Below are positions 8,790 through 44,708 of a stretch of DNA of 64,000 nt, piece after piece. The DNA lies in the NCBI RefSeq assembly GCF_030811715.1, contig NZ_JAUSRH010000002.1:248001-312000 (forward strand). Direction: 5' to 3'. Source of the DNA: Sinomonas atrocyanea. Its GTDB lineage: Bacteria > Actinomycetota > Actinomycetes > Actinomycetales > Micrococcaceae. The translations under genes and the position numbers were made by a program. The notes below the pieces were generated by a model, which did not search any database, was not told the origin of the DNA, and saw nothing but the letters and a program-made list of their open reading frames with translations. Position 1 is the stretch's first letter; each line of letters starts with the position of its first letter.

Positions 8790-11513
8790 ATGCGGACGCG
8801 GATCGAGGCAGAGGAGACGGGCCAGCTCCTGCGGGACGCGAAGGTCCGCGCGGGCGACAGGCTGGCGTGGGCGCGCGCCGTCAGATCCAGGGAGATCGCG
8901 GAGGCGGCGGCGGCGCTGGCCGCGCCCGGCTCCTACGGCGTGGTGCTGACCGGCGACACGAGCTCCGGCAAGTCCGCGGTGGCCTCGGCCCTGCTCACCG
9001 GCCTCGAGGCCTCCGCCCACACCATCCGCCTGCGCTCCACGACCATGGGGACCCGGACCCCGTATGGGGCGCTCGCGGTGCTGCTTGCGCGGCTGCCCGA
9101 GGACGCCCAGGCCGACCCGGGATCGATCATGCGGGGCATCCTGCAGCTCGTCGCCGCCGACGCCGGCGGCCGCACCGCGGTGATGTCGCTGGAGACCTCC
9201 AAGAACCTCGACGAACTCAGCACCGCCACCCTCGTGAACATCATGGTCACCGGCACCGCCAAGGTGGTCCTCGTCGCGGACCGGGCGAGCGAGCTGCCCG
9301 CAGACTTCCACTGGATGCTCTCCGAGGGGCGGCTGCGCGAGATCCCCCTGGCCGCGCTCTCGCCCGAGGAGACGCTCCAGGGACTGCGCCTGCTGCTCGG
9401 AGGGATCGTCCCCCAGACCGTCGGGTTCCAGCTGCAGGCGATGTCGCGGGGCAACCCGCAGGTGACGCTGCTCGTGGCAGCCGAACTCCTGCAGCGGGGG
9501 GCCCTCGCCGCCGCGGACGGCGTGTGGACCCTTGCCCCCGACGCCGAGATGGGCGGCATCCGCCAGATCGACGACCTCGTGCGGGCCCGGCTCGAACGGC
9601 AGCCCCCGCGCATCCAGACCATCGTCGAGGCCCTCGCCTGCGCACGCCGCATCCCGCTGCAGCGGCTCCTCTCCGTGTTCCGCCGGGAGGACCTCGCGCA
9701 GATGGAGGACGACGGCCTCATCACCGTCGACGACGGGGGGCGGCATACGGTGGCCCTCGCCGACCCCCTCGTGGGCGAGGTGGTCCGCGGGTGGCTCTCC
9801 GTGCCCCGCCGCCGCGAACTGCGCACGCTGCTGATGTCCGACGGCGAGCCCCCGGTCGAGGCCATTGCCGTCCTCGAACTCCTCGGCCTGGCGGCCTGGA
9901 CGCGCGAGTGCCACACCCTGCTGCCGCCGCGGCACGCCCTCGCGGCCGCCTCCGCGTCCCTGCGGCTGTTCGCCCCGCGGTTCGCGCTCGACTGCCTCGA
10001 GGGGATCGACCGCGAGGCCACGACCTGGCCCACCGTCCAGCACCTGCGCGCCCGGGCCCTGCTCATGCTGCAGCTGCCCCAGCAGGCCCTCGCCTGCCTC
10101 GACCAGGTCGCCGAGGACGAGCTCGCCCTCCTGGCCCCCTCAGCGGTGGCCGAGCTCACGGCAACCCAGGCCGAGGCCATGCGCTGGATCCCGGACCGCG
10201 CCGGGCAGGTCGAGGGCCTCCTGGCCGATGCCCGCGCCAGGCTCCTGCTGGGCGCGGGGTCCGGCCCGCGCCCGGATGCCGAGGTCCGGCGGGCGGCCGC
10301 GGTGCTGGACCTCGCGGACTTCGAGCACAGGGCCTTCGTGGGCGACTACCGCCGCATCGAGGACCGACTCGAGGCCATGGTGGCGGACCCCGACCCTGCC
10401 GACGACGAGATCCGCCTGCGCGCAGCCTGCATCCTCATGGAGGCCAGGACCATGCTCGGCAGGGAGCAGGAAGGGCTCGCCCTGCTGCACGAGGTCGCGG
10501 CGCAGATGGGACAGAAGCAGGGTTCGGCGCCGCTGCGGCAGGCCTTCGCAGCCCGCGCCTTCACCGTCCTCCTGTTCAACGGGCACTGGCGGCAGGCGCT
10601 CGCCCTGCTCAGGAGCCCGTCCCAATGGTCGCTCGAGCGGCTCAGGGCGACCGGGGCCTCCCTCGAGCTTGGCGCGGGACTCGCGTACGTCTACGCGGGC
10701 CGCGGCCACGACGCGCTGGGCCCCCTCCTCTCCGCGCTCGCCCTCCTCGAGCGGGGGCCGTCGGCGGGCCTGCTCGGGCCCGCCTACGCCGCGACCGCCT
10801 TCGCCTACGCGCAGCTGGGCGATGCCCCGGCGTCCCGGAAGTGGCTCGAGAAGCTGGAGCGCTGGCGGCCGCAGGGCAGCTACCAGACCCGCTCGATCGT
10901 CGACTTCTGCTCCCAGATGGCACGCCGGTGGACCGGGGACCCGCAGGCGGCCTCCCGGCTCGTGGCCTCGGCGCGCGAGGACATCGCCTTGGGGCGGTGG
11001 AACCAGGCCGGCATCAAGCTCTTCGGGGCGACGGTGGGGGGCCACGCCGACGACCTGCGCCTGCTCGAGGAGGTCTGCGCGCACCGGCAGGGTCAGCTGG
11101 CCCAGCTCGCCCTCCTGCTGGCCCGCGGCACCCGGACCGGGCGGCTCGAAGACCTGACTGCGGCGGCGGACCTTGCGGCCGCGCTCGAACTCGACGCCGT
11201 CGAATCGCGGTGCGCGGCCGTGGCCCTCGACCGGGCGCGGGAGATGGACGACGCCGGGGCGGTGCGGCGCCTGCGCCCGCGCCTCGACGCCCTGGCGGGC
11301 CGGCTCGCCGTCCTTCCCGTGGAGCCCCGGCACGCGCCGGCAGTTCTCACCGACCGCGAACAGGAGGTCGCGGCCCTCGCAGCGTCCGGAACCTCCAACC
11401 GGCGCATCGCGGAGCTGCTCGGACTCTCGGTGCGCACCGTGGAAGGGCACCTCTACCAGATCTTCGCCAAGCTCTCCGTCTCGACCCGGGGCGAGCTGGC
11501 GGACCTGCTGTGA
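8790..11513 (+). CDS. LuxR-family LAL/STAND transcriptional regulator A (degenerate Walker B)
   Basis: Very large regulator: an N-terminal P-loop NTPase module, a long helical repeat (TPR-like) region, and a C-terminal LuxR helix-turn-helix. Walker A is GDTSSGKS at about residues 55-62. The Walker B position reads AVMSLETSKNLDE (about 131-143) and has no adjacent acidic pair, so ATP hydrolysis may be lost. The final 60 residues hold LTDREQEVAALAASGTSNRR and LSVRTVEGHLYQIF. The ATG at 8790 is preferred to the GTG at 8763, but neither has a strong ribosome site. It is closely similar throughout to regulator C (16510) and is followed after 22 bases by regulator B. The target and signal are unknown; the adjacent polysaccharide operon is a plausible target. 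Confidence 0.85.
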   Translation: MRTRIEAEETGQLLRDAKVRAGDRLAWARAVRSREIAEAAAALAAPGSYGVVLTGDTSSGKSAVASALLTGLEASAHTIRLRSTTMGTRTPYGALAVLLARLPEDAQADPGSIMRGILQLVAADAGGRTAVMSLETSKNLDELSTATLVNIMVTGTAKVVLVADRASELPADFHWMLSEGRLREIPLAALSPEETLQGLRLLLGGIVPQTVGFQLQAMSRGNPQVTLLVAAELLQRGALAAADGVWTLAPDAEMGGIRQIDDLVRARLERQPPRIQTIVEALACARRIPLQRLLSVFRREDLAQMEDDGLITVDDGGRHTVALADPLVGEVVRGWLSVPRRRELRTLLMSDGEPPVEAIAVLELLGLAAWTRECHTLLPPRHALAAASASLRLFAPRFALDCLEGIDREATTWPTVQHLRARALLMLQLPQQALACLDQVAEDELALLAPSAVAELTATQAEAMRWIPDRAGQVEGLLADARARLLLGAGSGPRPDAEVRRAAAVLDLADFEHRAFVGDYRRIEDRLEAMVADPDPADDEIRLRAACILMEARTMLGREQEGLALLHEVAAQMGQKQGSAPLRQAFAARAFTVLLFNGHWRQALALLRSPSQWSLERLRATGASLELGAGLAYVYAGRGHDALGPLLSALALLERGPSAGLLGPAYAATAFAYAQLGDAPASRKWLEKLERWRPQGSYQTRSIVDFCSQMARRWTGDPQAASRLVASAREDIALGRWNQAGIKLFGATVGGHADDLRLLEEVCAHRQGQLAQLALLLARGTRTGRLEDLTAAADLAAALELDAVESRCAAVALDRAREMDDAGAVRRLRPRLDALAGRLAVLPVEPRHAPAVLTDREQEVAALAASGTSNRRIAELLGLSVRTVEGHLYQIFAKLSVSTRGELADLL

Positions 11514-11535
11514 CCTTGCCCAGCGGGGCGCCGCC

Positions 11536-14251
11536 ATGAGCCCCGGGCCGCCGCACAGTGCACCGGCGCACGGGCTGCCCGCGGACACGGGCCGCGTCAT
11601 CGAGCTCATCACCCGGCCGGCCACCGCCGCGGTGCTGGTCCTGGGCGAGATGGGCATGGGCAAGTCCGCGCTGCTCGATGGAGCGGCGCAGGCGCTCGGC
11701 GAACGGCTGGAGGTCCTCCGCCTCCACGGCAGCCCGGCCCTCGCGAAGGTCCCCTATGGCGTCCTCGCGCCCTTCCTCGGGGGTCTGCCCCCTGCCGGGG
11801 CGGCGTCGCGGGTCGAGGTCCTGCGGGCCTTCTGGCGCGCCGTCGAGGCCCTCCGGCAGGGGGCCAAGCCAGACCTGCTCCTCGTCATCGACGACGCGCA
11901 CGAGCTGGACGCGGCCTCGAGCGAGGTCGTCGCCGAGCTCGTCTCGGCCCGCTGGACCAAGGCGGCCATGGCCGCGCCCAGCGGCGCTGCCCTGCCGAGG
12001 CCGCTCATGGAGCTGTGGCTCGACGACGGCGTCGAGCGGGTCGACCTCGCGCCCCTCACGGTCGAGCAGGTGCGCTCCTACCTCGAGGCCGCGCTCGGCG
12101 GTCCCGTGCTGCCCACCGTGCCGCAGCTGCTCTGGCAGGAGTCCGAGGGCAACCCGCTCCTGCTCGGGCGCCTCGTCGAGGAGGCCCGGCGGTCGGGAGC
12201 GCTGGGCCTGCACGGCCAGACCTGGCTCGTCACCGAGGACCTCCCGCACCGAGGGGAGGGGCTGCTCGCCCTCGCCCGGGCGCAGCTCGGGCGCCTCGGC
12301 CCCGGCGAGCGGGAGGCGCTGAGCCTCATCGTCGTGGCCGAGCCGGCCCCCTTCGCGCTCGTGGAACGGGAGTGCGGCGCCGAGGCCATCCGGCGGCTCG
12401 TCGCCATGAGGCTCGTGCGCCCGGCCGAGGGCCCCGACGGCGTGCTCCGCCTCCGGCACCAGGTGTACGGAGACGCGCTGCTGGCGCTGATCCCGCTCAC
12501 CACCGCGCTGGCGCTGCGTGAACGGGTTGCCGGCCACCTCGCGCGGCAGGCGTCCACGGGACAGGGCCTCCTCCGCGCCGTCACCTGGGCGCTGCACTGC
12601 GGATTCCCGGTGGAAGACGAGGCGCTCCTGGCGGCCGCCCGGCTGGCCCTGGGGCTGCACGAGAACACGCTCGCCGCGCGGGCGGCCAGCGCCGTCCAGC
12701 GCCCGGGCGCGCGGGACGCCGCACGGGACGTGCTCGGACAGGTGGCCTACAGCCGCGGCAGGTACGCGGAGGCCGCCGCCCTGCTGCGCCCCGCCGCCTC
12801 TGGGCGCGGGAGCATCCGGCCGGGCCTGGCCGGCGGCCTCGCATGGATCGCGGCGCGCCGGGCCTTGGGCCATGCGGCGGAGGCGCTCCGCGCCGAGATC
12901 GAGCGGCTTCCCGGGGCCGGCGCGGGGGGCCTGCGCGATGTGCTCGCCCTCGTCGTCGCCTCGGACGCCGGCGACCGGGACTGGCTGGCTGACGGGCTGC
13001 GCCGCTGGCGCTCCGGGCATCGGCAGGGACGCGGGTCCCCGCACGGGGCCGCGGCCGAGGCCGTGGTCTGTGCCCTCGAGGCGGAGCTCCTGATGGCCTC
13101 GGGCAGGCCGCTCGGGGCCGCACGGCCGCTGCGCGCCGCGCTCGGGCGCGCCGCCGGGACGGCCGACGCGACCCCCTGCCTGCAGGCCTTCGGGGCAACG
13201 CGCCTGGTCCTCGCTGACCTCGCGGCCGGAGAGTGGGAGGCCGCGGAGGATGACCTGCAGCGCTTCCTGATCGCCTCCAGGGCCGGACTCGTCACCGACG
13301 GGCCTGCGGCGCAGATGGCCCGCGGAGTGGCTCTGGTCCGGCGCGGACGCTTCCGCGCGGCGTGGGAGGCGCTCGCGCCGGCGCTGGATGCCCTCCACGG
13401 CCGCGACCCCCAGCGCCTGCTCCCGCTCGCCGCCGCGGTGGCGGCCTACGCGGGCGCCCGCGCGGGGGAGCACGGCGCAGCGCGCACCCTCCTGGGCTCG
13501 GCGGAGGACCGGGCGGTCCCGGCCGTGGCGCTGGTGCGGCCCGTGGCCGGGCTCTTCACGGCCGCCGCGCGTCACGTCCTCGATGCGGCCGCAGGCTCCG
13601 CCGGCCCCGACTCTCCCGGCGCCGGGGAACGCCTCGAGGCCGCGGTCGACGGGGCCGCAGGAGAGGGCCGGCTCGACGTGGAGCTGCAGGGGGAGCTCCT
13701 CTGCTTCGAGGCGGGCCGCCGCGACCGGCTCGCCAGGCTGCTCGAGGTGGCGCACAGCACCGAGGGCCGCTGGGCCGAGGCGGCGGCCGTCCTCGCAGAC
13801 GCCTTCGCCGCGAGGAGCCCGGGCGGGCTCCTCGAGGCGGGGGAGCGGCTCTCCGCGGGGGGGCTGGACCTCCTACGCGCGCGACTGCTTCGCCGAGGCA
13901 TCGCGCGGCTTCGACCGCGCCCTCCAGCGCTCCGACGCCCGCGCCGCGTGGTCGAGGAAGGCCGAATGCGACGCGCTCCTGGGCGACGGGGTACCCCGGC
14001 CCGCCGCCGGATCGGCCCGGCTGACGCCCCGCGAGCGCGAGGTGGTCGCCTTCGCCGCGGCAGGGCTCAGCGACCGCGAGATCGCCGAACGGCTCACCGT
14101 CTCGGTCCGCACCATCGAGGGACACCTCTACCGGGCCTATGCCAAGCTCGAGGTCACGAGCCGAGAACAGCTCGGCGCAGCGTTCGGATCCGGCGGCGCG
14201 ACACCGGCCGCGCCCGGGGGATCCGAGTACACACGGGCGGCGAGCAAGTAG
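11536..14251 (+). pseudogene. LuxR-family LAL/STAND regulator B, reading frame broken near its C-terminus
   Basis: Starts at ATG 11536 with Walker A GEMGMGKS (about 37-44) and a canonical Walker B LLLVIDDAHELD (about 114-125). A helical repeat region follows. Near residue 774 the frame that encodes everything upstream stops making sense. The normal C-terminus, with DCFAEASRGFDRAL and the LuxR HTH LTPREREVVAFAAAGLSDRE and SVRTIEGHLYRAYAKL, continues in the next frame to TAG at 14251. The likely slip point is a run of seven G at 13857-13863; removal of one base restores one frame of about 904 residues. As written, translation would run to about 14511 without an HTH. Three readings are possible: true mutation, homopolymer sequencing error, or slippage-based switching. 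Confidence 0.8.
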
Positions 14252-14296
14252 TCCCGGTCCCGCGAGGGTCCAGAAGACAAGTAGTCACTACCCGTG
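14245..14296. promoter_or_regulatory. GTAGT-motif cluster in the sufS upstream region
   Basis: CAAGTAGT occurs at 14245-14252 and again at 14278-14285. The second copy runs into a perfect short dyad, GTAGTcACTAC (14281-14291), followed by CCGTG. Related GTAGT sites occur upstream of both polysaccharide operons (22160, 22238, 48567). The rest of the 300-base gap before sufS (14297-14559) shows no gene. Confidence 0.3.
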
Positions 14297-14511
14297 CGCA
14301 GGCACGGTGCCTGGTGCGAAAGTGGGGATGTGGCCGGAAACCCCGAGTTCCCGGCCACTGTCCCCAAGGACTGGGCCGGCGGCGTCGGAACCTCCCCGAG
14401 ACCAAGGTTCCTCCCCCCAGCCGCCGCCGGCCCCGCCTTGGGATCTCCTGCGTTGGACCCGACGCCCGCCGGGCGTGGGACAATGGATTCCGGCATGTTC
14501 GCATGCCCTAA

Positions 14512-16347
<1,836 letters not shown>

Positions 16348-16358
<11 letters not shown>

Positions 16359-16406
16359 CGCCGGTGCACCCCAGCCACGCGGGTGCGCCCCAGTAACACA
16401 CCGGTG
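16348..16406 (+). repeat. three contiguous 19-21 bp direct repeats at the sufU stop
   Basis: Units are 16348-16366 (CACCCCAGTAACGCCGGTG), 16367-16385 (CACCCCAGCCACGCGGGTG) and 16386-16406 (CGCCCCAGTAACACACCGGTG). The sufU TAA is in the first unit and the third unit repeats the same TAA. They look like local duplications of the gene's end. Confidence 0.8.
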
Positions 16407-16434
16407 CCCTGCCGTATCCGGGGCGTTGGTCCCT

Positions 16435-16462
16435 TTGCAATGTCCGAGGGCGGCCGTAGGCT
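16435..16462 (+). promoter_or_regulatory. candidate promoter of LAL regulator C
   Basis: TTGCAA (16435-16440), a 16-base spacer and TAGGCT (16457-16462) give a fair sigma-70-like promoter 48 bases before the ATG of regulator C. A GGTGGAGG ribosome site follows. Confidence 0.45.
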
Positions 16463-16509
16463 GTGCCTGTTCGGGCGGCTGGGGGCCAACGTCCGAGGTG
16501 GAGGCATAG

Positions 16510-19230
16510 ATGGTCAACAACATACCGAGCCTGATGGACGCGCCCGGCCCGGCCGGCGCGCCGCCCGCGGCTCCGACGGAGCGGCAGGCGGACCGGAGGC
16601 ACTGGGCCACGCTCGTGCGCCAGTCCGAACTCGACGCTGCCGTCGGAGCGCTCACCCAGGACTCCAGCCTCGGTGTGGTGATCACCGGTTCCCCCGGCGT
16701 GGGGAAGTCCTTCCTCGCGGGCGCCGTGCTCTCCTCCCTCGGTCCCGGCGTGCACACCATGCGGCTGCGGGCCTCGTCCGGGCCCTCCGGCCCGGGGGCG
16801 GCCCCGTCCACGTGCCTCGGCCCCCTCCTCGCCCGGCTCCCGAAGTCCGCCCCGTCCTCGGGCACGGGCCTGCTCCTGGCCCTCGAGCGCATGCTCGCCG
16901 ACGACGCGGCCGGCCGCGACGTCGTGCTCACCCTCGACCTCGTGGGGCCCCTCGCGGAGGACTGCGTGGCCGTGCTCATGCACCTCGTCCTCAGCCGCGC
17001 GGCGCGGCTGATGGTCATCGCCCCCGCCGTCGCCGACCTTCCCCCCGACCTCGCCCGCCTCGTCCGCGGTGGCCGCCTCAGAGAGATCGCGCTCGGCAGG
17101 ATCGGCGTGCCCGAGACGCGCCGGCTCGTCTCGGCGATCGTGGGCGGCAGGGTGGCGTCGTCGACCATCGGCGAGGTGCACTACGCCTGCGGCGGCAATC
17201 CCGCAGAGGTGTACGGGATCGTGCACCGCGAGCGTGCCCGCGGGAACCTGCACCAGCGGGGCGGGGTGTGGACCCTAGACCGCTCCGTCCGGCCCGAGCC
17301 GGTCCGGGGCGCGGACGACCTCATCCGTGCGCGCTGGGCCCGGGAGTCCCAGGACGTCAGGGAGGTCATCGAGCAGCTCGCAGTGGCCCGCAGGGTGCCG
17401 ATCACGGCCCTTGCGGGCCTTTTCGGTTCTGAGGTCCTCGTCGACATGGAGGACCGCGGCCTCATCGCCGTCGACACGAGCCAGCACCGCTGCGCCTACC
17501 TCCGCGAGCCGCGCATGGCGGAGCTCGTGCGGGCCCGGCTCGGGCCGGACCGCCACCGCGAACTCGCCTCGCTCATGTCCCTCGGCGGCGCATCCGAGGA
17601 GGGCGGCCTGGACCGCGACGAGCTCATCTCCTACGTCGAGTGGACCCTCGAGGTCGGCACCGCCCCGGACCCAGGCCTCGTGCTGCAGTCCGCGGCAGCC
17701 GCGGTGGAGCTCTTCGAGCCGGACCGGGCGCTCGTGCTGCTGGACCGGCTCCCGTCGCTCGACGGCCCGCCTGCGTTCGAGGCCGCCTTCCGCCGCGCGG
17801 CGGCGCTCGCGATGCTCGAGCGCCGGGACGAGGCCCTCTCCGTCCTCGAGGCGCTGCCGGCGGCGGTCCTCGGCTCGCTCGAAGCGGTGGACGCCGCGAG
17901 GTACGCAGCGGCGAAGTCGGAGCTGCTGAGCTGGCTCCCTGCGGCAGGGGACGCGCGCGAGCCGCTGCGGTCGGCGTGGGACCGGCTCGCGGTCCGCGCC
18001 GAGGAGTCCGGGCTGGTCCGGGCGGCCGGCGAGGTGCTCGACCTTGCCGAGTTCAGGGCGCACGCCTTCACCGGGGACTTCATGCCCCTCCTCGCCCGCC
18101 TGGAGGCCGCCTCGCGGGACACGGACGCGAGCGAGGGCTTCCGTCGCGGCTCGTCCATCCTGCTCGCGCATGCCTGGGCCGCGTGCGGCCGGGAGGCGGA
18201 CGCCGCGGCCCTGCTGGCCTCCATCGAGTTCTCCGCGCCACGGCGCATGGACGAGGGCGACTTCCTGGCGACGGCATTCTCCGTCTGGACAGCGATGGGC
18301 GACTGGAAGCGGTGCGTCGACCTGTTCGAGGCCTACATGGACAAGGGCGGCCGCAGGCTGACGCTCCGCGGCGGGATCGCCGAGCTGTACCTCGCCCTCG
18401 CGCACCTGGCCGCCGGGCACGGCGCCGCGGCGCTCGGTCCCGCCCTCAGCGCGGCCGCCCAGCTCGAGGAGTTCCCGGCGCTCAACGCCCAGCGCGCCGC
18501 CTATGCGGCGGCGGCCCTCGCCTACGCCCAGATCGGCGACTCGGGGGAGGCGGAGCGCTTCCTCTCCCTGGCCGCCAAGGCCCGGGGGCCGATGTTCTGG
18601 CAGCTCGCGACCTACGCCGACCAGTGCGAGGGCGCCGCCCGGACGTGGCTCGGCCAGGGCGACGGCGCGGCGGCGATGCTCGCCCGCGCCGCCCGGGACG
18701 AGGCCGCGGGGCGCATGGGCGCCGCCGGCACCGCCGTCTTCGAGGCAAGCCTGGTGGGCGGCGAGCGGGAGTTCCTGTGGATCGAGCGCCTCGCCCACCA
18801 CCGGCAGGGCCCCCTCGCCCACCTCTACGCAGCGGTCGCCTCCGCGACGCGGCGCAGGGACGTGGCGGGCCTCCTCACCGCCGCCGAGGAGGCCTACGAC
18901 CTCCGCCTCGACGCCGTCGAGGCCCGGTGTGCCGCGCTCGCCCTCGACTTCGCCCGGGGCGAGGGGAACTCGGTGGCGGCCGGCCTCGCCCAGACCCGGC
19001 TGGACCGGCTCGCGCGGGTGCTGCCGGTGCTCCCGCTCGTGCCCCAGACGCCCGCCCCGATGCTCACAGAGCGCGAGCGCCAGATCGCGGTCCTTGCCGC
19101 CTCCGGCTCCTCCAACCGGGACATCGCCGACGAGCTCGGCGTCTCGGTCCGCACCGTGGAGGGACATCTGTACCAGGTATTCATGAAGCTGGGGGTGAGT
19201 TCGCGTGCCGGACTGGCTGGCCTTGTCTGA
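16510..19230 (+). CDS. LuxR-family LAL/STAND transcriptional regulator C (degenerate Walker B)
   Basis: A 906-residue paralogue of regulator A, with the same order: NTPase module, long helical repeats and C-terminal LuxR HTH. Walker A is GSPGVGKS (60-67). The Walker B position reads VVLTLDLVGPLAED (about 138-151), which has hydrophobics and a single D but no DD/DE pair. The HTH is LTERERQIAVLAASGSSNRD with GVSVRTVEGHLYQVF. Similarity to A includes LARLP, GRLREI, GNPxV/AE and MEDxGLI blocks. A strong ribosome site (GGTGGAGG) precedes the ATG. The gap to regulator D is 40 bases, so C and D are likely co-transcribed. The signal is unknown. Confidence 0.87.
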   Translation: MVNNIPSLMDAPGPAGAPPAAPTERQADRRHWATLVRQSELDAAVGALTQDSSLGVVITGSPGVGKSFLAGAVLSSLGPGVHTMRLRASSGPSGPGAAPSTCLGPLLARLPKSAPSSGTGLLLALERMLADDAAGRDVVLTLDLVGPLAEDCVAVLMHLVLSRAARLMVIAPAVADLPPDLARLVRGGRLREIALGRIGVPETRRLVSAIVGGRVASSTIGEVHYACGGNPAEVYGIVHRERARGNLHQRGGVWTLDRSVRPEPVRGADDLIRARWARESQDVREVIEQLAVARRVPITALAGLFGSEVLVDMEDRGLIAVDTSQHRCAYLREPRMAELVRARLGPDRHRELASLMSLGGASEEGGLDRDELISYVEWTLEVGTAPDPGLVLQSAAAAVELFEPDRALVLLDRLPSLDGPPAFEAAFRRAAALAMLERRDEALSVLEALPAAVLGSLEAVDAARYAAAKSELLSWLPAAGDAREPLRSAWDRLAVRAEESGLVRAAGEVLDLAEFRAHAFTGDFMPLLARLEAASRDTDASEGFRRGSSILLAHAWAACGREADAAALLASIEFSAPRRMDEGDFLATAFSVWTAMGDWKRCVDLFEAYMDKGGRRLTLRGGIAELYLALAHLAAGHGAAALGPALSAAAQLEEFPALNAQRAAYAAAALAYAQIGDSGEAERFLSLAAKARGPMFWQLATYADQCEGAARTWLGQGDGAAAMLARAARDEAAGRMGAAGTAVFEASLVGGEREFLWIERLAHHRQGPLAHLYAAVASATRRRDVAGLLTAAEEAYDLRLDAVEARCAALALDFARGEGNSVAAGLAQTRLDRLARVLPVLPLVPQTPAPMLTERERQIAVLAASGSSNRDIADELGVSVRTVEGHLYQVFMKLGVSSRAGLAGLV

Positions 19231-19270
19231 GAGGGAAGCGCGCCCGGAACGGAGGACGATGGAGACGACC

Positions 19271-22000
19271 ATGAATGCCTCACCGGGCTCCCGGGGAGAC
19301 CGCCGCGACTACACGATGGCCCCCGACGGGCTGGCCCCGACGCAGCAGACGGTCATCGCCGCCACCGTCGAGGCCCTGCGCCGTGGGCTCCCCGGAGCGG
19401 TGATCGTCTCGGGAGAGCCCGGGACGGGGAAGACCCACCTCATCGACACGGTGACCGCCCAGCTCCGCGACGACGTCCGGTTCGTGGCAATCACGCCCGG
19501 GGAGAGCCTGAGGCACATTCCCTACGGGGCGCTCCTGCAGTGCCTGAGGCACCTCACCCCGGAGGAGGCCCAGGACCGCGTCGGCGTCCTGCGTGCCCTC
19601 TGGGCTGAGCTGCACGGCTCCGAGCCCGAGGACGGCTCTCGCCCCGAGCGGCCGATCGTGATCGTGCTCGACGACGCGCACCATCTCGACGACGACTCCG
19701 CCGGGGTCCTCGCCGAGGCGGTCGCGTCGTCATGGGTCAGGGTGCTCGCCACGGCGTCCAGCTCGGGCGGGCTCCCCGGCGACCTCCTGGACCTGTGGCG
19801 GGACGGGCTCGCAGAGCGGTTCGACCTCGGCCCGCTGTCCCTCGAGGAGAGCCGGGACGCGGCCGGGAAGCGGCTCGGCGGACGGCTCTCCATCACCGCC
19901 GCCGCGGTCCTGCATGCCCTGAGTGCGGGCAACCCGCTCCACCTCGTGCGGCTCACGGACGAGGCCATCGCGGGCGGAACCCTCGTCCAGCGGCGCGGGA
20001 TCTGGCTGCTCACCGGGGACTTCGCGAGCAGGGGCCAGGCCCTCGGCGCGCCCGTGCGCAGCGCGATGGAGTCCCTCGCCCCGGCCGAGCGCGAGGCCCT
20101 CACGCTCATCGCGCTGACCGAGCCGCTGCCCCGCGCGGCAGCCCGGACGCTCATCGAGCGGGCCGTGTTCGACCGGCTCACCGACGCCGGATGGCTGGCG
20201 GACGCGGGCCATGCGAGCGTCCGGCTGCGCTACCCGCTCGTCGCGGACGCGATCCGCGCCATGACGACCTCCACCCGGCGCCTGCACCTCCTGCGGCGCG
20301 CCACGGCCATGGGCGGGGACGAACTGCGCCAGCCGGCGAACGAGCTCAGGCTGTTCGAGCTCGCCCTCGAAACCGGCACAATTCCGCCGTTCCACGAGCT
20401 TGCACGGGGCGCGGCCCACGCTGTCTCGCGCTTCCGCAACGATCTGGGCCTCAAGGCAGCGGCCCTCGTCGAGGGGGACGCCGAGCGCTCGCTCATGCGG
20501 GCCATCCCGGCCCGTGCCCACCTCAACCTCGGCAACCCGGCCGCGGCGCTCGCGGACCTCTCTCGCGGCCCCGTGGACCCGAACGACGTCGACGACGTCC
20601 TCGCCGGCACCCTGGTCGGCTTCGCCGCGAGGGCGGCCCGGGGCGAGACCGCCGCGATGGACGACGACGCAGCGAGGCTCGAGCGGGCAGCGGAGGCCGT
20701 GGAGCGGGCCACACCGACGGGCGACATCGTCTTCGGGCCCGGCCCCCGCGAGGCCGTCCTGCGCAGGGCCAGGCTCCTGCGGGCCCTCGCCGCCGACGAG
20801 CGCGGGGACATCGCCGCGGTCGAGGCTGCCGTGGCCGAGGAGCAGCGCGCCGTGCACGCCACGCCCTCGGCCCCGATCGAGCAGGCGCTGTGGACGCTGC
20901 TCGAGGGGTCGGTGCTGCTTGCACGGGGCCAGTACGCCACCTCCGCGCGCCTGGCCGGTTCCGTCCTGGCCCAGATCGAGATCGACGACGAGCACTTCCC
21001 GCTCGAGGAGTACGGGCTCGTCCGGTACCTCTCGGCCCTCGTCCTCGGCGGCGACTGGGGGTCTGTCGTCAAGGTGTCCGAGGGGTACACCGGCGTCCGT
21101 TCCCGTCCGATCGTCGCCTTCGGCCCCGGGCTCTACTGTGCGCGGGCCTTCGCGCTCCTCCACAGCGACCGCGGCGCGGAGGCCCTGCCGATGCTCGGCG
21201 ACGTCGTCGAGAACCTCGAGCTCATGGACCCCCTGCGCCTCCTCGCCGTCGCGGCCTCGTTCGCCGCGTGGGCGGCCGCGGCAGCAGGGGACGAGGAGGG
21301 CGCACGCGAGTACCTCGCCCGCGCCGAGGGCTGCGCCGAGGTGGGCAACGCGGCCATGCGCGAGCTCGCGGCCATGCACCGCGCCGGGGCCGCCGAGATC
21401 CTCCAGCCCGGCAGCGGCCTGGCGGCACTTGAGGAGATCGCCGAGCGGAACCGCGCGGCGGGCCGGCCCGGCTGGGAGCTCATCGCGAGGGTCCTCTTCC
21501 TCGAGCTCGGCGGCAGGGACGAGGCCGGCCGGGCCGCGGAGGCCGCGGCGGCCGCGGAAGGATCCTGGGCCAACGGCTGGGGCGCCTGGGCACGCGCCGA
21601 GGCGGAGGAGCACGGCGACGGCTACCTGGCGGCAGCGGACCACTTCCGCGCCCTCGGGCTCAACCGGCGCGCCCGGGCCGCCTACGCGCGCGCCGCGGCC
21701 TGCTTCGACGCCGCGGGGGACAGGGTCGCCGCGCGCCGCGCGGGGGCGGCCGCCCGCGCCTGCGAGGGCCTGCCCGGCGCCGGCGAGGCGGGGGAGGCAG
21801 AGGAGGCCGTCCTCGCGTCGCTGCGCCTGAGCCCGCGCGAGCAGGATGTCGTGGACCTCGCCGTCGAGGGCCTCAGCGACCGCCAGATCGCCGACAGGCT
21901 GCACCTCTCCGTCCGCACCGTGGAGGGGCACCTGCACCGCAGCTACGCCAAGCTCGGCATCCGCAGCCGCGAGGACCTGCGCTCCGCCGTCGAAGACTGA
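19271..22000 (+). CDS. LuxR-family LAL/STAND transcriptional regulator D
   Basis: A 909-residue paralogue of regulator B, with an intact ATPase site: Walker A GEPGTGKT (48-55) and Walker B IVIVLDDAHHLD (129-140). The middle is alpha-helical repeats rich in ARG/AAAR. The C-terminal HTH is LSPREQDVVDLAVEGLSDRQ followed by HLSVRTVEGHLHRSYAKL. ATG 19271 has GGAG six bases upstream; ATG 19259 is an alternative. It is the last regulator before the polysaccharide operon, which begins 345 bases downstream on the same strand. Local control of that operon is inferred from position only. Confidence 0.87.
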   Translation: MNASPGSRGDRRDYTMAPDGLAPTQQTVIAATVEALRRGLPGAVIVSGEPGTGKTHLIDTVTAQLRDDVRFVAITPGESLRHIPYGALLQCLRHLTPEEAQDRVGVLRALWAELHGSEPEDGSRPERPIVIVLDDAHHLDDDSAGVLAEAVASSWVRVLATASSSGGLPGDLLDLWRDGLAERFDLGPLSLEESRDAAGKRLGGRLSITAAAVLHALSAGNPLHLVRLTDEAIAGGTLVQRRGIWLLTGDFASRGQALGAPVRSAMESLAPAEREALTLIALTEPLPRAAARTLIERAVFDRLTDAGWLADAGHASVRLRYPLVADAIRAMTTSTRRLHLLRRATAMGGDELRQPANELRLFELALETGTIPPFHELARGAAHAVSRFRNDLGLKAAALVEGDAERSLMRAIPARAHLNLGNPAAALADLSRGPVDPNDVDDVLAGTLVGFAARAARGETAAMDDDAARLERAAEAVERATPTGDIVFGPGPREAVLRRARLLRALAADERGDIAAVEAAVAEEQRAVHATPSAPIEQALWTLLEGSVLLARGQYATSARLAGSVLAQIEIDDEHFPLEEYGLVRYLSALVLGGDWGSVVKVSEGYTGVRSRPIVAFGPGLYCARAFALLHSDRGAEALPMLGDVVENLELMDPLRLLAVAASFAAWAAAAAGDEEGAREYLARAEGCAEVGNAAMRELAAMHRAGAAEILQPGSGLAALEEIAERNRAAGRPGWELIARVLFLELGGRDEAGRAAEAAAAAEGSWANGWGAWARAEAEEHGDGYLAAADHFRALGLNRRARAAYARAAACFDAAGDRVAARRAGAAARACEGLPGAGEAGEAEEAVLASLRLSPREQDVVDLAVEGLSDRQIADRLHLSVRTVEGHLHRSYAKLGIRSREDLRSAVED

Positions 22001-22057: not shown

Positions 22058-22159
22058 GGGCCTGTGGCGGGCCTAAAGCCTCTGCCGCCGCGCGCCGTCG
22101 TGCGTCCCGTTTGCCCCCGGCACGTAGCCCTTGCCGGGCCCCGCGGAAAAGGCATGCGG

Positions 22160-22248
22160 CACCGGGTAGTGGCCGCCGAACCGGGTGCGTACCGGTCAAG
22201 GGGTGCACCCCCGGAACCCCCGCGAAGCTCGCGTACTCACTACTCGTG
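22160..22248. promoter_or_regulatory. GTAGT-type motifs upstream of the polysaccharide operon
   Basis: CACCGGGTAGTGG (22160-22172) and CACTACTCGTG (22238-22248, the reverse complement of CACGAGTAGTG) are two similar sites in the 345-base gap before the first polysaccharide gene. The second resembles TCACTACCCGTG at 14285. The gap otherwise shows only the terminator hairpin and no coding frame. Confidence 0.35.
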
Positions 22249-22345
22249 ACCCTCCTCCGCCCGGCGCGTGTACTGGTGTGCAGAAGCTTTCCGTTCGAGG
22301 CGGTGCCCCAATGCCGGGCACCGCGGCAGGGGCAAGGAGCGGGTC

Positions 22346-23878
22346 ATGTCCGTAGGAGCTCACCAGGGATCAGCAGGATTCGAGCAGGCCCGCGCGCGCG
22401 GGCTGGCAGACCGGTTCGGGGCGCTGGGTCTGCGGCTGCGCCGGGACCTGAACGCGGCGGAGGCCCGCATGGCCCGGTCCGCACGGGCCCAGGACTGGGC
22501 CCACCGCTACGCCCGGTTCCTGCGCATCACGGACACCCTCGTGGCGTTCGCCGCCGGGGCCCTGGGGCTCCTGGTCATGAAGCCGCCGCCTGGGCCGGCC
22601 GCCGCGCTCGGAGCGTTCATCCTCGTCTGGCCGTTCGCCCTCGGGCTCTCCGGCAGCCGGGACACCTCCGTGCTCGGCATCGGCGTGGACGAGTACCGGC
22701 GCGTGGTCAGCGCCACGATGCAGCTGTTCGCCTTCGTCGCGGTCGTGGTCGTCCTCACCGACGGGGCCCTGCCCGCGCGGCTCTGGGCCCTCGTCCTCGG
22801 CACCGGCTCGGCCGGTCTGCTGGCGACCCGCTCGCTGAGCCGCCGCTGGCTCCATCGCCAGCGGCAGAGCGGCATGTACCTCACCCCCGCCGTGGTCGTG
22901 GGGGAGCCGGAGGACGTCCGCTACGTGGTGCGGCGCATCGCCGCCGGCGAGGGCGCGCCGTACAACGTCCTCGGCGCGATCCTGCCCGGGGGCCGCCGGG
23001 GGCAGACCCTCACGGTCGACGGCGAGCGCCTGCCCGTGCTCAGCTCGACAGACGACGTGGTGCGCACCGTTGCGACGAAGAAGGCCGGCGCCGTGATCGT
23101 GGCCGGGCCCGTCCCCGGCGGCAACCAGTACGTCCGCGAGCTCGGCTGGAACCTCGAGGAGCACGACGCCGAACTCGTCCTCGCCTCGTCCCTGACCAAC
23201 GTCGCCGGGCCCCGCATCCACTTCCGCCCCGTGCCGGGCCTGCCCCTCATGGAAGTCGACCTCCCGCGCTACTCAGGGACCAAGCACGTGGTGAAGCGCT
23301 GCGCGGACCTCGTGATCGGCACGGCAGCGGTGATCGTCCTGGCGCCGGTGCTCGCGGTCCTGGCGCTGATCGTCCGGCTCGACTCTCCAGGCCCGGTGCT
23401 GTTCCGGCAGGAGCGCGTGGGCAAGGACGGCAGGCCGTTCACGATGTACAAGTTCCGCTCGATGGTCCCGGACGCGGAGGCCCGCCTGGCCGCCCTCGCC
23501 GAGGCGAACGAGGGCGCCGGGGTGCTGTTCAAGATGAAGGAGGACCCGCGGGTGACGCGGTGCGGCGCCTGGATGCGCCGCTACTCGCTCGACGAGCTCC
23601 CGCAGTTCTTCAACGTCCTGCGCGGCGAGATGAGCCTCGTCGGCCCGCGGCCGCCGCTGGCCAGGGAGGTCGGCAGCTACGAGCGCTACACCCACCGGCG
23701 GATGCTCATCAAGCCCGGCATCACGGGCCTGTGGCAGATCAGCGGCCGCTCGGACCTCGAATGGGACGACGCCGTCCGCCTCGACCTGTACTACGTCGAG
23801 AACTGGTCCCTCACTGGTGACCTCATGATCCTGTGGCGCACGCTCCGCGCCGTGGTCGCACCGACGGGCGCCTACTGA
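22346..23878 (+). CDS. exopolysaccharide polyprenyl glycosylphosphotransferase (priming sugar transferase)
   Basis: Membrane enzyme that starts the repeat unit by moving a sugar-1-phosphate from a nucleotide sugar onto undecaprenyl phosphate. Several N-terminal membrane helices span about residues 50-150, then comes a CoA-binding-like nucleotide fold (YVVRRIAAG...). The bacterial sugar transferase domain is about 312-510 with KRCADLVIG, FRQERVGKDGRPFTMYKFRS, RRYSLDELPQFFNVLRG, SLVGPRPPL and KPGITGLWQISGRS. The ATG at 22346 has AAGGAG (22334-22339) six bases before it. The length is 510 residues. It is the first gene of the + strand polysaccharide operon. The sugar specificity cannot be read reliably. 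Confidence 0.93.
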   Translation: MSVGAHQGSAGFEQARARGLADRFGALGLRLRRDLNAAEARMARSARAQDWAHRYARFLRITDTLVAFAAGALGLLVMKPPPGPAAALGAFILVWPFALGLSGSRDTSVLGIGVDEYRRVVSATMQLFAFVAVVVVLTDGALPARLWALVLGTGSAGLLATRSLSRRWLHRQRQSGMYLTPAVVVGEPEDVRYVVRRIAAGEGAPYNVLGAILPGGRRGQTLTVDGERLPVLSSTDDVVRTVATKKAGAVIVAGPVPGGNQYVRELGWNLEEHDAELVLASSLTNVAGPRIHFRPVPGLPLMEVDLPRYSGTKHVVKRCADLVIGTAAVIVLAPVLAVLALIVRLDSPGPVLFRQERVGKDGRPFTMYKFRSMVPDAEARLAALAEANEGAGVLFKMKEDPRVTRCGAWMRRYSLDELPQFFNVLRGEMSLVGPRPPLAREVGSYERYTHRRMLIKPGITGLWQISGRSDLEWDDAVRLDLYYVENWSLTGDLMILWRTLRAVVAPTGAY

Positions 23879-23959: not shown

Positions 23960-25165
23960 ATGGGAGATGTTCCACATCCGCTGGCCCAGCTGAGGGGGCT
24001 CGCCGAGGGCCGGCACGGCAGCACATTGCGCGTCGTCGTGGTCGGAGCCGGCTACTGGGGTCCCAACCTCGCCCGGAACTTCGGCCGCTCCCCGGACTGG
24101 GAGCTGGCCGCGGTCTGCGACCTGGACGTGGCGAAGGCCGCCGTGCTCGGCGCGCCCTTCGGTGCCCCGGCCTTCCCTTCGCTGGACGAGGCGCTCGACA
24201 CGGTCGAGGCAGACGCCGTGGCCATCGCCACACCGGCGAGGACCCACCACGGCGTGGCGCTCACCGCGCTCGCGGCAGGCAAGCACGTGCTGATCGAGAA
24301 GCCGCTCGCAGACACTTGGGAGAAGGGCGCCGACCTCGTGCGGGAGGCCGAGGAGCACGGCCTCGTCCTCATGGCAGACCACACGTACTGCTACACCCCC
24401 GCGGTGCAGAAGATCCGCGAGATCATCCTCGACGGGGACCTCGGAGACCTGCTGTACATCGACTCAGTCCGCATCAATCTGGGCCTGGTCCAGCCGGACG
24501 TCAACGTGTTCTGGGACCTCGCCCCCCACGACCTCTCGATCCTCGACTACGTCCTGCCCGATGGCCTCGCCCCGGAGGCCGTCTCGGCGCACGGCGCCGA
24601 CCCGCTCGGCACCGGCCGCGACTGCGTGGGCCACCTCACCTTCGACCTGCCCGACGGCGCCATGGCCCACATCCACGTCAACTGGCTCAGCCCGACCAAG
24701 ATCCGCCAGATGGTGATCGGCGGCACGCGGCGCACCCTCGTGTGGGACGACCTCAATCCGCAGCAGCGGCTGAGCGTGTACGACCGCGGCGTCCAGCTTC
24801 CGCGCAAGGGCCCGCGGGGCGGGCTCGAGCGGCGTGACGCGGCGGTGTCCTACCGGCTCGGGGACACCTGGTCTCCGGCGCTGCCCGAGCGCGAGGCGCT
24901 GGGGGCGATGGTCGCCGAATTCGCCGGCGCCATCCGCTCGGGGCGCTCGCCCGCCACGAGCGGCGAGTCCGCGCTGCGCGTCCTCGGCATCCTCGAGGCC
25001 TCGAACCGCAGCGTCACCCACCACGGCGCGCAGGCGGCGGTCGCGGCGCTCGACGGCGTGCCCGGCGCCGCGGGCGCCAAGGACGCCAGCGTCGTCGACA
25101 TCGCCGGCCACGCCCACCGGACCCCGCTCGTCGAGAGCGGCGCGGCCCAGGAGTCCGGGTCATGA
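23960..25165 (+). CDS. Gfo/Idh/MocA family sugar-nucleotide dehydrogenase (WlbA/WbpB-like)
   Basis: NAD-dependent oxidoreductase. The Rossmann motif VVVGAGYWGPNLARNFG lies near residues 26-42, with the family catalytic region HVLIEKPLAD (EKP) and later DVNVFWDLAPHDLSIL. Relatives in polysaccharide loci oxidise C3 of UDP-GlcNAc-uronate, giving the keto sugar for a DegT transaminase and a WlbB acetyltransferase. Both partner types are present in this window (DegT genes at 26154 and 27988; WlbB-like gene at 47791). The ribosome site AAGGGGA precedes the ATG. The stop overlaps the next start (ATGA). The length is 401 residues with a 24-residue N-terminal extension and an Ala-rich C-terminal extension. 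The exact substrate is inferred. Confidence 0.85.
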   Translation: MGDVPHPLAQLRGLAEGRHGSTLRVVVVGAGYWGPNLARNFGRSPDWELAAVCDLDVAKAAVLGAPFGAPAFPSLDEALDTVEADAVAIATPARTHHGVALTALAAGKHVLIEKPLADTWEKGADLVREAEEHGLVLMADHTYCYTPAVQKIREIILDGDLGDLLYIDSVRINLGLVQPDVNVFWDLAPHDLSILDYVLPDGLAPEAVSAHGADPLGTGRDCVGHLTFDLPDGAMAHIHVNWLSPTKIRQMVIGGTRRTLVWDDLNPQQRLSVYDRGVQLPRKGPRGGLERRDAAVSYRLGDTWSPALPEREALGAMVAEFAGAIRSGRSPATSGESALRVLGILEASNRSVTHHGAQAAVAALDGVPGAAGAKDASVVDIAGHAHRTPLVESGAAQESGS

Positions 25166-26157
25166 CCGTCCTGGCCGGGGCGCGGGTGCTCGTCACGGGC
25201 GGCGCCGGAACGATCGGCTCCACGATCGTGGACCAGCTGCTGGACGCGGGCGTGGAGCACATCGACGTCCTCGACAACCTGGTCCGCGGCCGGCTGGCGA
25301 ACCTGGACCATGCGATCGCCACGGGACGCGTGCGGCTCGTCGAGGGCGACCTGCGGGACCGCGACCTGGTCCACGACCTCACGGTCGAGAAGGACGTGGT
25401 CTTCCACCAGGCTGCCATCCGCATCACCCAGTGCGCCGAGGAGCCGCGCCTCGCCCTCGAGGTCCTCGTGGACGGCACGTTCACGGTGCTCGAGGCCGCC
25501 GCCCAGCACAGCGTGGACAAGGTGGTGCTCGCCTCGAGCGCCTCGGTGTACGGGGCTGCGGAGCAGTTCCCCACGGGCGAGCGCCACCACCACCACAACA
25601 ACGACACGTTCTACGGCGCTGCCAAGAGCTTCAACGAGGGCATGGCCAGGAGCTTCCGGGCCATGTACGGCCTCGACTACGTGGCCCTGCGCTACTTCAA
25701 CGTGTACGGCCCGCGGATGGACGTCCACGGGCTCTACACCGAGGTGCTCGTGCGGTGGATGGAGCGGATCGCGGACGGCCGGCCGCCCCTCGTGTTCGGC
25801 AACGGCGAGCAGACCATGGACTTCGTCTACACGGAGGACGTCGCGAGGGCCAACATCACAGCCGCCGAGTCCTCCGTCTGTCAGGGCGTGTACAACGTGG
25901 CCAGCGGCACGGAGACGAGTCTGCTCGCGCTCGCCGTGGCGCTGCTCGCGGCCATGGACTCGGACCTCTCGGTCGAGTTCGGGCCCGCCCGCAGGGTCAA
26001 CGGCGTCGCCCGCCGCCTCGCCGACATCGCGGCAGCCGAGCGGGACCTCGGGTTCCGCGCGCAGATGCCGCTCGAGGAGGGCCTGCGCCGCCTTGTGGCC
26101 TGGTGGCGCCCCCTTCGCGAGGAAATCGCCGCCGCCCGAGTCCTGGCGGCGTCATGA
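25162..26157 (+). CDS. NAD-dependent epimerase/dehydratase (extended SDR)
   Basis: Sugar-nucleotide epimerase or dehydratase of the extended SDR family. The cofactor loop is VTGGAGTIGS (11-20). The catalytic pair is Y151 and K155 in FYGAAKSFNE, with the third residue in VVLASSASVYG. RYFNVYGPRM is the usual substrate-side motif. The segment before the catalytic Tyr is unusually His-rich (GERHHHHNND), where UDP-glucose 4-epimerase-like relatives often have NNRT-type sequence. Whether it is a 4-epimerase or a dehydratase cannot be settled. It overlaps both neighbours by ATGA. Confidence 0.88.
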   Translation: MTVLAGARVLVTGGAGTIGSTIVDQLLDAGVEHIDVLDNLVRGRLANLDHAIATGRVRLVEGDLRDRDLVHDLTVEKDVVFHQAAIRITQCAEEPRLALEVLVDGTFTVLEAAAQHSVDKVVLASSASVYGAAEQFPTGERHHHHNNDTFYGAAKSFNEGMARSFRAMYGLDYVALRYFNVYGPRMDVHGLYTEVLVRWMERIADGRPPLVFGNGEQTMDFVYTEDVARANITAAESSVCQGVYNVASGTETSLLALAVALLAAMDSDLSVEFGPARRVNGVARRLADIAAAERDLGFRAQMPLEEGLRRLVAWWRPLREEIAAARVLAAS

Positions 26158-27302: not shown

Positions 27303-27991
27303 CGGAGCTCCTCCTCGCCGCAGCCGGCGGCCTCGCCCGCGAGGTCATGGCAGCCGTCCGCGACGGCAGCAGGTACGACATCCTCGGGCTCGTCGACGAC
27401 GACCCGGCCCGCACCGGGACCGTGTTGGACGGGGCCCACATCCTGGGCCGCCTCGAGGACGTGCGGGAGTACCCCTCGGTGCACCTCGTGGTCTGCGCCG
27501 GCAGCGGGACCGTGCGTGCCGACATCGTCCGGCGGCTCGGCGTGCTCGGGGTGGCCCAGAACCGGTACGCGACCATCATCCATCCGAGTGTGACGGTCCC
27601 TGAGGGGTGCTCCGTGGGAGAGGGGAGCATCCTGCTCGCGAACGTCGTGATGACGGCGGCCGTGCAGATCGGCAACCACGTCGTGGCCATGCCCCAGGTG
27701 ACCTTCACCCACGAGGACGTGGTCGAGGACTTCGCCACGTTCGCTGCGGGTGCGACCCTCGGCGGGTCCGTCACGATCGGGCGCGCCGCGTACGTGGGCA
27801 TGAACTGCAGCATCCGGCAGAACGTACGGATCGGCGCGCAGGCCGTCGTCGGGATGGGCGCGGCCGTCGTGGCCGACGTCCCGGACGGGCAGACCTGGGT
27901 GGGGGTGCCCGCGCGGCAGATCCCGCCCCCGCCGCGCCAGGGACCGGCGTCGGACGAGACCGCCGCTCCGGCGGGGGAGGGGGAGCGATGA
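27299..27991 (+). CDS. NeuD/PglD-like sugar acetyltransferase
   Basis: Left-handed beta-helix acyltransferase that N- or O-acetylates a sugar. The N-terminal alpha/beta domain of about 90 residues begins with TELLLAAAGGLAREVMAAV, where PglD binds the UDP-sugar. The hexapeptide-repeat helix follows from about residue 95 (HPSVTVPEGCSVGEGSILL to WVGVPARQI). The probable catalytic His is in THEDVVEDF. A Pro/Ala-rich tail extends it to 230 residues. Position between two aminotransferases suggests it acetylates the amino sugar one of them makes. Confidence 0.88.
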   Translation: MTELLLAAAGGLAREVMAAVRDGSRYDILGLVDDDPARTGTVLDGAHILGRLEDVREYPSVHLVVCAGSGTVRADIVRRLGVLGVAQNRYATIIHPSVTVPEGCSVGEGSILLANVVMTAAVQIGNHVVAMPQVTFTHEDVVEDFATFAAGATLGGSVTIGRAAYVGMNCSIRQNVRIGAQAVVGMGAAVVADVPDGQTWVGVPARQIPPPPRQGPASDETAAPAGEGER

Positions 27992-34974: not shown

Positions 34975-34991
34975 TCTGAAGGGGGACGATC

Positions 34992-36401: not shown

Positions 36402-36409
36402 GTCTCGTC

Positions 36410-37213: not shown

Positions 37214-37224
37214 GTTAGACTACA

Positions 37225-38460: not shown

Positions 38461-38510
38461 GGAAGAGCGTCGGCTGTCATCGTCCGCATCCACCGATCAG
38501 TAGCTGGTTT

Positions 38511-39950: not shown

Positions 39951-39953
39951 GGC

Positions 39954-44675: not shown

Positions 44676-44708
44676 GGGGACTCCTCGCTGGGACATGGTG
44701 CGCTGCTG

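Follow-up and report, generated by a model that had tools for sequence, protein, structure and literature searches.

Tandem LAL regulators that usually carry one intact set of ATPase motifs per pair in Sinomonas atrocyanea and related soil bacteria

The window analyzed here, a stretch of 64,000 nucleotides from Sinomonas atrocyanea (contig NZ_JAUSRH010000002.1, positions 248,001 to 312,000, of a genome in 27 contigs), carries four large regulator genes, designated A, B, C, and D, whose products belong to the large ATP-binding regulators of the LuxR family (LAL) and to the signal-transduction ATPases with numerous domains (STAND). These genes form two tandem pairs, A-B and C-D, with sufS and sufU in between; and the question raised by the locus is whether the two members of a pair are equivalent or divide a single ATP-dependent switch between them. 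The original prediction on this DNA had described four proteins of some 900 residues in that order, and had proposed that an ancestral pair with one degenerate and one intact Walker B motif had been duplicated and its arrangement kept. It had also suggested a hetero-oligomer with A or C as ligand-sensing or scaffold partner, and made no mention of the break in B, the box arrays, the RNA, or the exopolysaccharide genes described below. The order stood, as did the lengths of A, C, and D, whereas B is not a single open frame here. As judged from the motifs, the carriage of one intact ATPase set per pair is usually the case in Sinomonas, Arthrobacter, and related soil bacteria, and the two pairs of the window are, by sequence comparison, copies of one ancestral two-gene module.

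Ancestry of the pairs and distribution of the Walker motifs

All four proteins contain a P-loop of the form GxxxxGK[ST]. A, C, D, and the latter piece of B all scored above the cut-off of the Pfam domain GerE, while AAA_16 exceeded its cut-off in B and D and fell below it in A (26 versus 32.6) and C (21.5 versus 32.6). The AlphaFold models of A and D (mean predicted local-distance-difference-test values of 87.3 and 88.1) display the STAND layout of an NTPase, a winged helix, and a helical-repeat sensor in one chain, and the top Foldseek match of both in the PDB was 6mfv, a STAND protein with tetratricopeptide repeats (E = 9.3e-8 for A and 4.7e-10 for D), with whole-chain TM-scores in the STAND comparison that were low (0.23–0.31). 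The 6mfv protein differs, moreover, in its identity of only 12–13% and in the absence of a LuxR helix-turn-helix (HTH) from its title, as well as in a root-mean-square deviation of 23–24 over the chain, which value implies that the domain arrangement differs or moves. A scan of A, C, and D with PADLOC gave only HTH-sized matches to two CARF3 models, so that a role as anti-phage defence proteins was rejected.

To judge the descent of the pairs, we compared the four proteins globally, B being translated through its break with X. The identity was 37.1% between A and C (z 42.7) and 34.3% between B and D (z 36.7), versus 28.5–31.3% in the four cross comparisons (z 18.4–22.7). The shared motifs that had been pointed out beforehand, namely ASG[TS]SNR, GRLREI, and MEDxGLI in A and C, and GLSDRxIA and YAKL in B and D, were all found. 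Relatives were sampled by a search of 38 genomes with A, 37 of which gave some match (many to the HTH alone) and 19 regions of which were fetched; by a scan of named genomes, whose 75 loci derive from the best 80 of at least 444 relatives as selected by likeness to A; and by further loci picked by hand among the matches listed, the last of these not being randomly chosen. At least two adjacent LAL genes were present in all 75 of the loci so chosen from those best 80 relatives. Profile matches at 1e-40 occurred in at least 85 of 149 Micrococcaceae genomes, and at 1e-60 in 42 of 297 genomes across the order. A homologue of A lies also at 1002487–1005147 of NZ_AP024648.1, which is catalogued as a plasmid of 1.35 Mb from Arthrobacter sp. 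StoSoilB13; the alignment covers 98% of the query at 43% identity.

A FastTree tree of 266 proteins, from which the loci L059–L062 and L073 were omitted as repeats of fetched genomes, and which was rooted at its midpoint with no outgroup, separated 133 first-type from 133 second-type proteins. The former side contained all the A and C proteins, and in addition 73 proteins from the first gene of a locus, 27 from the third, and three others; the latter, all the B and D proteins, 71 second genes, 23 fourth genes, and nine third genes. Within those halves A and C fell in a clade of 90 members (support 0.96), and B and D in one of 99 (support 0.997). The position of A and C on one side and of B and D on the other indicates that the pair predates the A-B/C-D duplication and that pairs have been copied as units; a descent that would group A with B and C with D was ruled out by both the identities and the tree. 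The topology and the ancestral duplication were thus as the original prediction had anticipated. It had likewise expected adjacent pairs, and not single genes with random loss, to be the rule among the relatives, and we counted 159 first-second tandem pairs in 117 of 129 loci. That count covers those 129 loci, omits in addition L129 as a repeat of L212, and leaves 12 of the loci over, 10 of which had been picked as single hits, the others being L056 and L057.

The two-acid Walker B is intact in B and D, whereas in A and C the second acidic residue is gone and the first is kept, as E in A and as D in C. The readings predicted for the four proteins (Table 1) were thus recovered along with the P-loops of A and C, except that the degeneracy is limited to that second acid. 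In 15 Sinomonas genomes and one of Arthrobacter the second acid was absent from 16/16 A and 14/14 C proteins, while the P-loop and DD were kept in 16/16 B proteins, and both acids, as DD or ED, in 14/14 of the D. Among the 159 pairs the first members kept the P-loop lysine in 157 and had lost the second acid in 140, the residue in its place being N (78), T (46), F (9), L (4), or another (three); the second members kept the second acid in 157 and the P-loop lysine in 140. The full motif set was intact in only the second member of 134 pairs, in only the first of 10, in neither of 13, and in both of 2. Exactly one member was intact in 144 pairs, versus 127.5 in shuffles, none of the 5000 of which reached that figure. 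By group, the second member alone was intact in 26 pairs of Sinomonas (neither in 4), in 9 pairs of a second family of the order (neither in 1), and in 99 of the other Micrococcaceae, where the first alone was intact in 10, neither in 8, and both in 2. The split, in recurring in tandem pairs of two families, goes beyond chance; and the supposed retention of a degenerate-plus-intact arrangement holds by motif for the large majority of pairs, but fails for those with neither or both members intact, and has its roles exchanged in the 10 first-only pairs. These last all belong to one clade, in whose 16 pairs the second member has lost the P-loop lysine; the first member is intact in 10 of the 16.

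Repeated boxes and a structured RNA downstream of the second genes

Alignment of the gaps between D and the initiating sugar-transferase gene revealed conserved repeats, for which we adopted the rule [CT][GAC]AGTA[GC], counted on both strands in the 400 bp that follow the second member; a heptamer tried at first, TAC[TC][CG][GA][TC], was superseded by that rule. Downstream of the pairs the boxes numbered 69 versus 7.1 expected in Sinomonas (30 regions, A-B and C-D pooled), 363 versus 44.0 in other Micrococcaceae (119 regions), and 20 versus 1.9 in the second family (10 regions). The corresponding figures beside other LALs were 10 versus 5.1 downstream and 7 versus 4.7 upstream (32 regions each), while the middle portions of 159 second genes gave 31 versus 16.2; in 67 named loci, 24 matches lay within 400 bp upstream of the first LAL. 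The hexamer CGAGTA occurred 33 times versus 2.2 expected in 23 gaps from outside Sinomonas, and was present in 18 of those. Boxes on the same strand were spaced in 13 of 22 instances by 19–24 or 41–44 bp, or about two or four helical turns. The first-tried heptamer is matched as well by four tandem units of 15 bp, TACTGGCACACCGGC, at 61874–61933 of the window.

The promoter-proximal site of the array, GTACYSRCTACTSGTGA, is present in 20 exact copies in 12 of the 15 Sinomonas genomes, in 11 of which a copy lies right after D. Extra copies lie in other surface-polysaccharide regions of several Sinomonas genomes, where they precede a displaced sugar-transferase gene (genome G009), a gene for a phytase/CBM96 protein (G011), and one for a protein of 250–286 residues, two examples of which gave no match in Pfam; two other genes, one lectin-like and one for a glycosyltransferase, are preceded by nearly exact copies. 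At up to two mismatches the site is not enriched in the 15 genomes (95 occurrences versus 177 for the reversed control), so that only exact or nearly exact copies count. The C-D pair and the sugar-transferase gene are jointly absent from the fetched stretches of G012 and of S. cellulolyticus, and G012 is the sole genome of the 15 without any match to the site. We had also entertained suf as the only regulatory theme of the pairs, which idea was discarded: the neighbour of C-D is an exopolysaccharide-type cluster, and elsewhere many pairs adjoin a sugar-transferase gene without sufSU in between.

Between the box site that follows B and the start of sufS lies a hairpin of 76 nt with an invariant GAGACC loop, to be read as a structured RNA or, alternatively, as a DNA hairpin. 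From the LAL loci fetched we retained 75 distinct copies out of 77, the matches at L175 and L190 being dropped as due to chance, and aligned 40. Changes on both sides were found in 12 of the 19 base pairs; 99.3% of the cells pair, versus 91.7% after shuffling; and the covariation score was 0.372, versus 0.214 in shuffles, with none of 500 attaining the former value. The number of further pair types, for its part, did not exceed that of the shuffles (22 versus 20.4, reached in 94 of 500). The loop as a whole and the internal loop are nearly invariant, as is a run of C. The copy in the window folds modestly better than its shuffles (z –2.0), and two other copies gave z –3.5 and –5.8. A covariance model located the RNA in all 15 Sinomonas genomes, with the best copy always directly 3' of B, and in 12 of 198 genomes of the order, 11 of these being Micrococcaceae.

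With respect to known RNAs, Rfam 15 returned only a tRNA in the whole window, and a permissive scan of 14240–14560 gave nine matches, all far below the gathering scores, so that membership of the hairpin in a known Rfam family was ruled out; nor did a literature search for a matching motif find any. Weaker matches to the model elsewhere lie beside unrelated genes with no shared context; 12 of their regions were fetched, and in 5 the match was on both strands, in the manner of terminator-like hairpins. A few copies of the hairpin are followed by a run of T (L197, L132), while that of the window is not. We considered furthermore that the RNA might act in trans through pairing of its GAGACC loop with GGTCTC near start codons: the pattern AGGTCTCN{1,6}ATG is about twice as frequent in the genus as its reversed control, a weak control, but no GGTCTC occurs between D and the sugar-transferase gene of the window. 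The hairpin may serve as a leader, as a small RNA, or as a terminator of a special kind.

Gene order in the window and neighbouring observations

The genes upstream of A are, in order, glmU, prs, rplY, and pth; the features from A onward are collected in Table 1. The intergenic spacing is 22 nt between A and B and 28 nt between C and D.

Table 1. Positions of the paired regulator genes, their downstream elements, and the adjoining genes in the window
Feature	Coordinates	Strand	Description
A	8790..11513	+	First-type LAL, 907 aa; P-loop GDTSSGKS, Walker B VMSLET, C-terminal LuxR HTH
B	11536..14251	+	Second-type LAL; P-loop GEMGMGKS and VIDDAHELD intact; frame broken, HTH at 14018-14173 in other frame
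Box site	14276..14298	+	GACAAGTAGTCACTACCCGTGCG; between B and sufS
Structured RNA (or DNA hairpin)	14368..14443	+	76 nt, invariant GAGACC loop; between box site and sufS
sufS	14515..15906	+	Cysteine desulfurase family (Aminotran_5)
sufU	15903..16358	+	NifU_N
C	16510..19230	+	First-type LAL, 906 aa; P-loop GSPGVGKS, LTLDLV, LuxR HTH
D	19259..22000	+	Second-type LAL, 913 aa; P-loop GEPGTGKT and VLDDAHHLD intact, LuxR HTH
Box array	22119..22280	+	Units at 22119, 22162, 22184, 22226, 22266; between D and the sugar-transferase gene
Initiating sugar transferase (Bac_transf)	22346..23878	+	First gene of the exopolysaccharide-type cluster; start at 22346 inferred
Remainder of the exopolysaccharide-type cluster	23960..38460	+	MocA, epimerase, DegT, Wzx-like, glycosyltransferases, DUF6492, WsaF, Wzy-like

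The N-terminal part of B, some 774 codons, and the HTH are encoded in different frames, the shift falling at a run of seven G (13857–13863). Since B is a single open frame in the 14 other Sinomonas genomes, the break would be either a recent mutation or an assembly error. A split also concerns A in genome G002 (L046, 1992–4550), where a frame of 852 residues lacks the HTH and the HTH part is found in another frame.

The G+C content falls to 0.55–0.65 at 30001–44000 and 50001–52000 of the window, versus a background of 0.70–0.78; the fall lies over the middle of the exopolysaccharide-type cluster and looks like a recent acquisition. Adjoining the polysaccharide genes, at 39957–44696 on the reverse strand, is a gene for a surface-type protein of 1580 residues with DMFA2_C, Big_5, and DUF4082 domains. 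As to other LALs of the genus, one further Sinomonas family (L138, L139, L142, L147, L149, L151, L159) has the P-loop lysine changed to R (GSGRT/S), two of its members being adjacent in L142 (3989–6658 and 6925–9606), one with DD and the other with DG; and in another family (L141, L145, L156, L157) the P-loop is intact and DA stands in place of DD.

A proposed division of the ATPase switch and its alternatives

We propose, tentatively and with not quite even confidence, that A with B and C with D work together as neighbouring STAND/LAL activators in a mixed oligomer that drives the downstream genes. The second member (B or D) would carry the full ATP switch, while the first (A or C), in keeping its P-loop, would probably bind nucleotide and probably hydrolyse it poorly or not at all. 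A partner that held ATP without spending it could be a stable subunit of the oligomer, for which the intact partner would serve as the off-switch; and with the HTH kept in both members, a mixed oligomer could bring several HTHs to bear on a row of short boxes, which we regard as candidate operators. Upon a presumed signal, each pair would activate what lies next to it downstream: C-D the exopolysaccharide-type cluster, and A-B the structured RNA plus sufSU. In nine loci (L067, L079, L082, L088, L090, L092, L098, L108, L117) the pair is directly followed, at about 15.5–18.5 kb, by a third LAL, of the second type with intact ATPase motifs, in which a profile scan detected no HTH; such a protein would reach the DNA only by way of a partner, which circumstance argues for mixed complexes.

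Known systems offer partial likenesses. MalT of Escherichia coli, with mutants of which Marquenet and Richet reportedly worked in 2007 and 2010, shares the N-terminal P-loop NTPase, the helical-repeat sensor, the C-terminal LuxR HTH, and the length of about 900 residues; it is nevertheless a single gene, and the MalT-MalY chain 8bob_C, which ranks 36th among the Foldseek matches for A and second for D, superposes poorly over the whole chain (TM-score to the models, 0.19). The MalT equivalog (NCBIfam NF003420, cut-off 537 bits) yielded 22.9, 29.2, and 26.2 bits for A, C, and D, with coverage of the HTH only. The antibiotic clusters of actinomycetes contain several LALs each (NysRI-RIII, GdmRI-RII), which act on neighbouring biosynthesis genes. 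These clusters resemble the window in their several LAL genes, but in the excerpted sources neither a Walker B split nor a hetero-oligomer was found described for them; nor did a literature search, over the matches listed in part from open-licence papers, find a description of paired active and inactive LALs. By NCBIfam, A, C, and D are best named AbsR2 (SCO6993 of Streptomyces coelicolor; 68.6–80.1 bits against a cut-off of 850), a protein of 606 residues whose neighbour absR1 lies in the reverse orientation and, in the excerpt of the source, not described as a LAL (PMC9705864). According to the excerpts of the papers concerned, the ADP-bound MalT monomer becomes, in response to ligand, an ATP-bound oligomer, DNA binding requires that oligomerisation, and MalY binds one of the oligomerisation surfaces (PMC10427625), while STAND proteins revert to rest through hydrolysis (PMC4381067).

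A further parallel may lie in the paired nucleotide-binding leucine-rich-repeat receptors (NLRs) of plants, such as RGA4/RGA5, RRS1/RPS4, and Pik-1/Pik-2, which in the excerpt of the source are described as linked genes whose products divide the labour and form heteromeric complexes, with only the helper P-loop being required in some pairs, and in which the sharing of one oligomer by two different STAND subunits is an open question (PMC9528088). Linkage of two STAND genes is what we found in the 159 pairs, and the analogy suggests that a LAL pair could be a two-part switch resembling those immune receptors; the plant pairs, however, are unrelated to the LALs as a pair, have cell death as their output, and use other sensors, whereas the bacterial heteromer is conjectural.

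Several observations weigh against a division of labour so conceived. The P-loop is altered in 4/14 D proteins, and GKG replaces GK[ST] in 6/16 A. The 159 pairs are not independent of one another, parsimony requiring only 4 changes in the first member and 6 in the second; a single clade supplies every pair with exchanged roles, which clade is still telling in that the usual active partner has lost its P-loop lysine and the usual degenerate partner is intact in 10 of the 16 pairs; and the pairs with neither member intact include 4 of the 14 C-D pairs of Sinomonas, while two pairs have both. The second acid is moreover missing in 11 of 30 readable LALs of the order that stand outside pairs and kept in 19, after 14 of 44 frames had been dropped for an unreadable Walker B or too weak a match; the 11 form three look-alike groups, DN, DA, and DG, and the acid is kept by 7 of ten LALs that had been chosen as single hits in the order. 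Loss of the acid is therefore not peculiar to pairs, but its ordered distribution within them is. DN, which is the commonest first-type state and also that of five LALs outside pairs, may still work; and since NLRP3, in the excerpt of its source, hydrolyses ATP despite a degenerate Walker B (hhhhDGxDE; PMC9633759), A and C may not be dead. The enrichment factors for the boxes are likewise optimistic, the rule having been derived from part of the regions later counted, and the gaps before A and before C showed no boxes when inspected by eye.

Among the alternatives, the members might act apart as homo-oligomers, their adjacency arising from tandem duplication plus co-transcription and the Walker B difference only tuning the active time of the first. 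The HTH kept in both members, the acid losses outside pairs, and the 109 of 156 splits common to the first- and second-member trees, for which plain linked inheritance would suffice, all agree with such an explanation; but the pairs have persisted, and been duplicated whole, across two families, the active site has shifted to the other partner in one lineage, and the nine loci hold an HTH-less LAL, so that we consider it somewhat unlikely. We think it improbable, too, that ET, DT, DN, EF, and DL are altered yet working Walker B motifs and both members ATPases: the example of NLRP3, the retention of the first acid and of the P-loop lysine, and the five outside LALs with DN would speak for that view, whereas the second acid is kept in almost all second members and lost from most first members, where T, F, L, or A at that position cannot serve as an acid.

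The first member, instead of being a co-activator, might antagonize the second by capping or poisoning its oligomer, as MalY does in blocking an oligomerisation face of MalT (PMC10427625, in excerpt) and as sensor NLRs do in repressing their helpers in some plant pairs (PMC9528088, likewise). Capping, however, would have no need of the conserved HTH that first members keep, and in the swapped lineage it is the first member that has the intact ATPase, and this possibility appears to us rather unlikely. There is, finally, the view that the boxes are bound by a different regulator, the hairpin is the terminator of the LAL operon, and the targets of the pair lie elsewhere. The T-runs after a few hairpins and the weaker RNA matches, which lie beside unrelated genes and are in part terminator-like, would fit it, but the boxes are found after pairs in two families and stay close to background next to other LALs, and the hairpin of the window, with no T-run, has a nearly invariant loop and internal loop; we accordingly hold such an arrangement to be unlikely. 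Returning to the mixed oligomer, a broader version of it would be an obligate two-protein STAND switch in at least two actinobacterial families, with a nucleotide-binding, non-hydrolysing partner and a hydrolysing one in a mixed ring on a dedicated box array, an active site that moved between the partners in one lineage, and, in the Micrococcaceae, a dedicated RNA made from the array; such a switch would be the transcriptional counterpart in bacteria of the paired NLRs of plants, and this we regard as possible, albeit doubtful.

We would call the LAL pairs, with their candidate operator and an RNA unlisted in Rfam, a variant of the LAL/STAND kind. STAND proteins take part in plant and animal immunity as well as in bacterial gene control, and the bacterial pairs, as soluble proteins of about 900 residues adjoining a candidate DNA target, would allow division of labour, partner specificity, and active-site transfer to be tested in a simple host. 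For the soil Micrococcaceae, the pairs provide a candidate regulator of exopolysaccharide synthesis together with a structured RNA not listed in Rfam.

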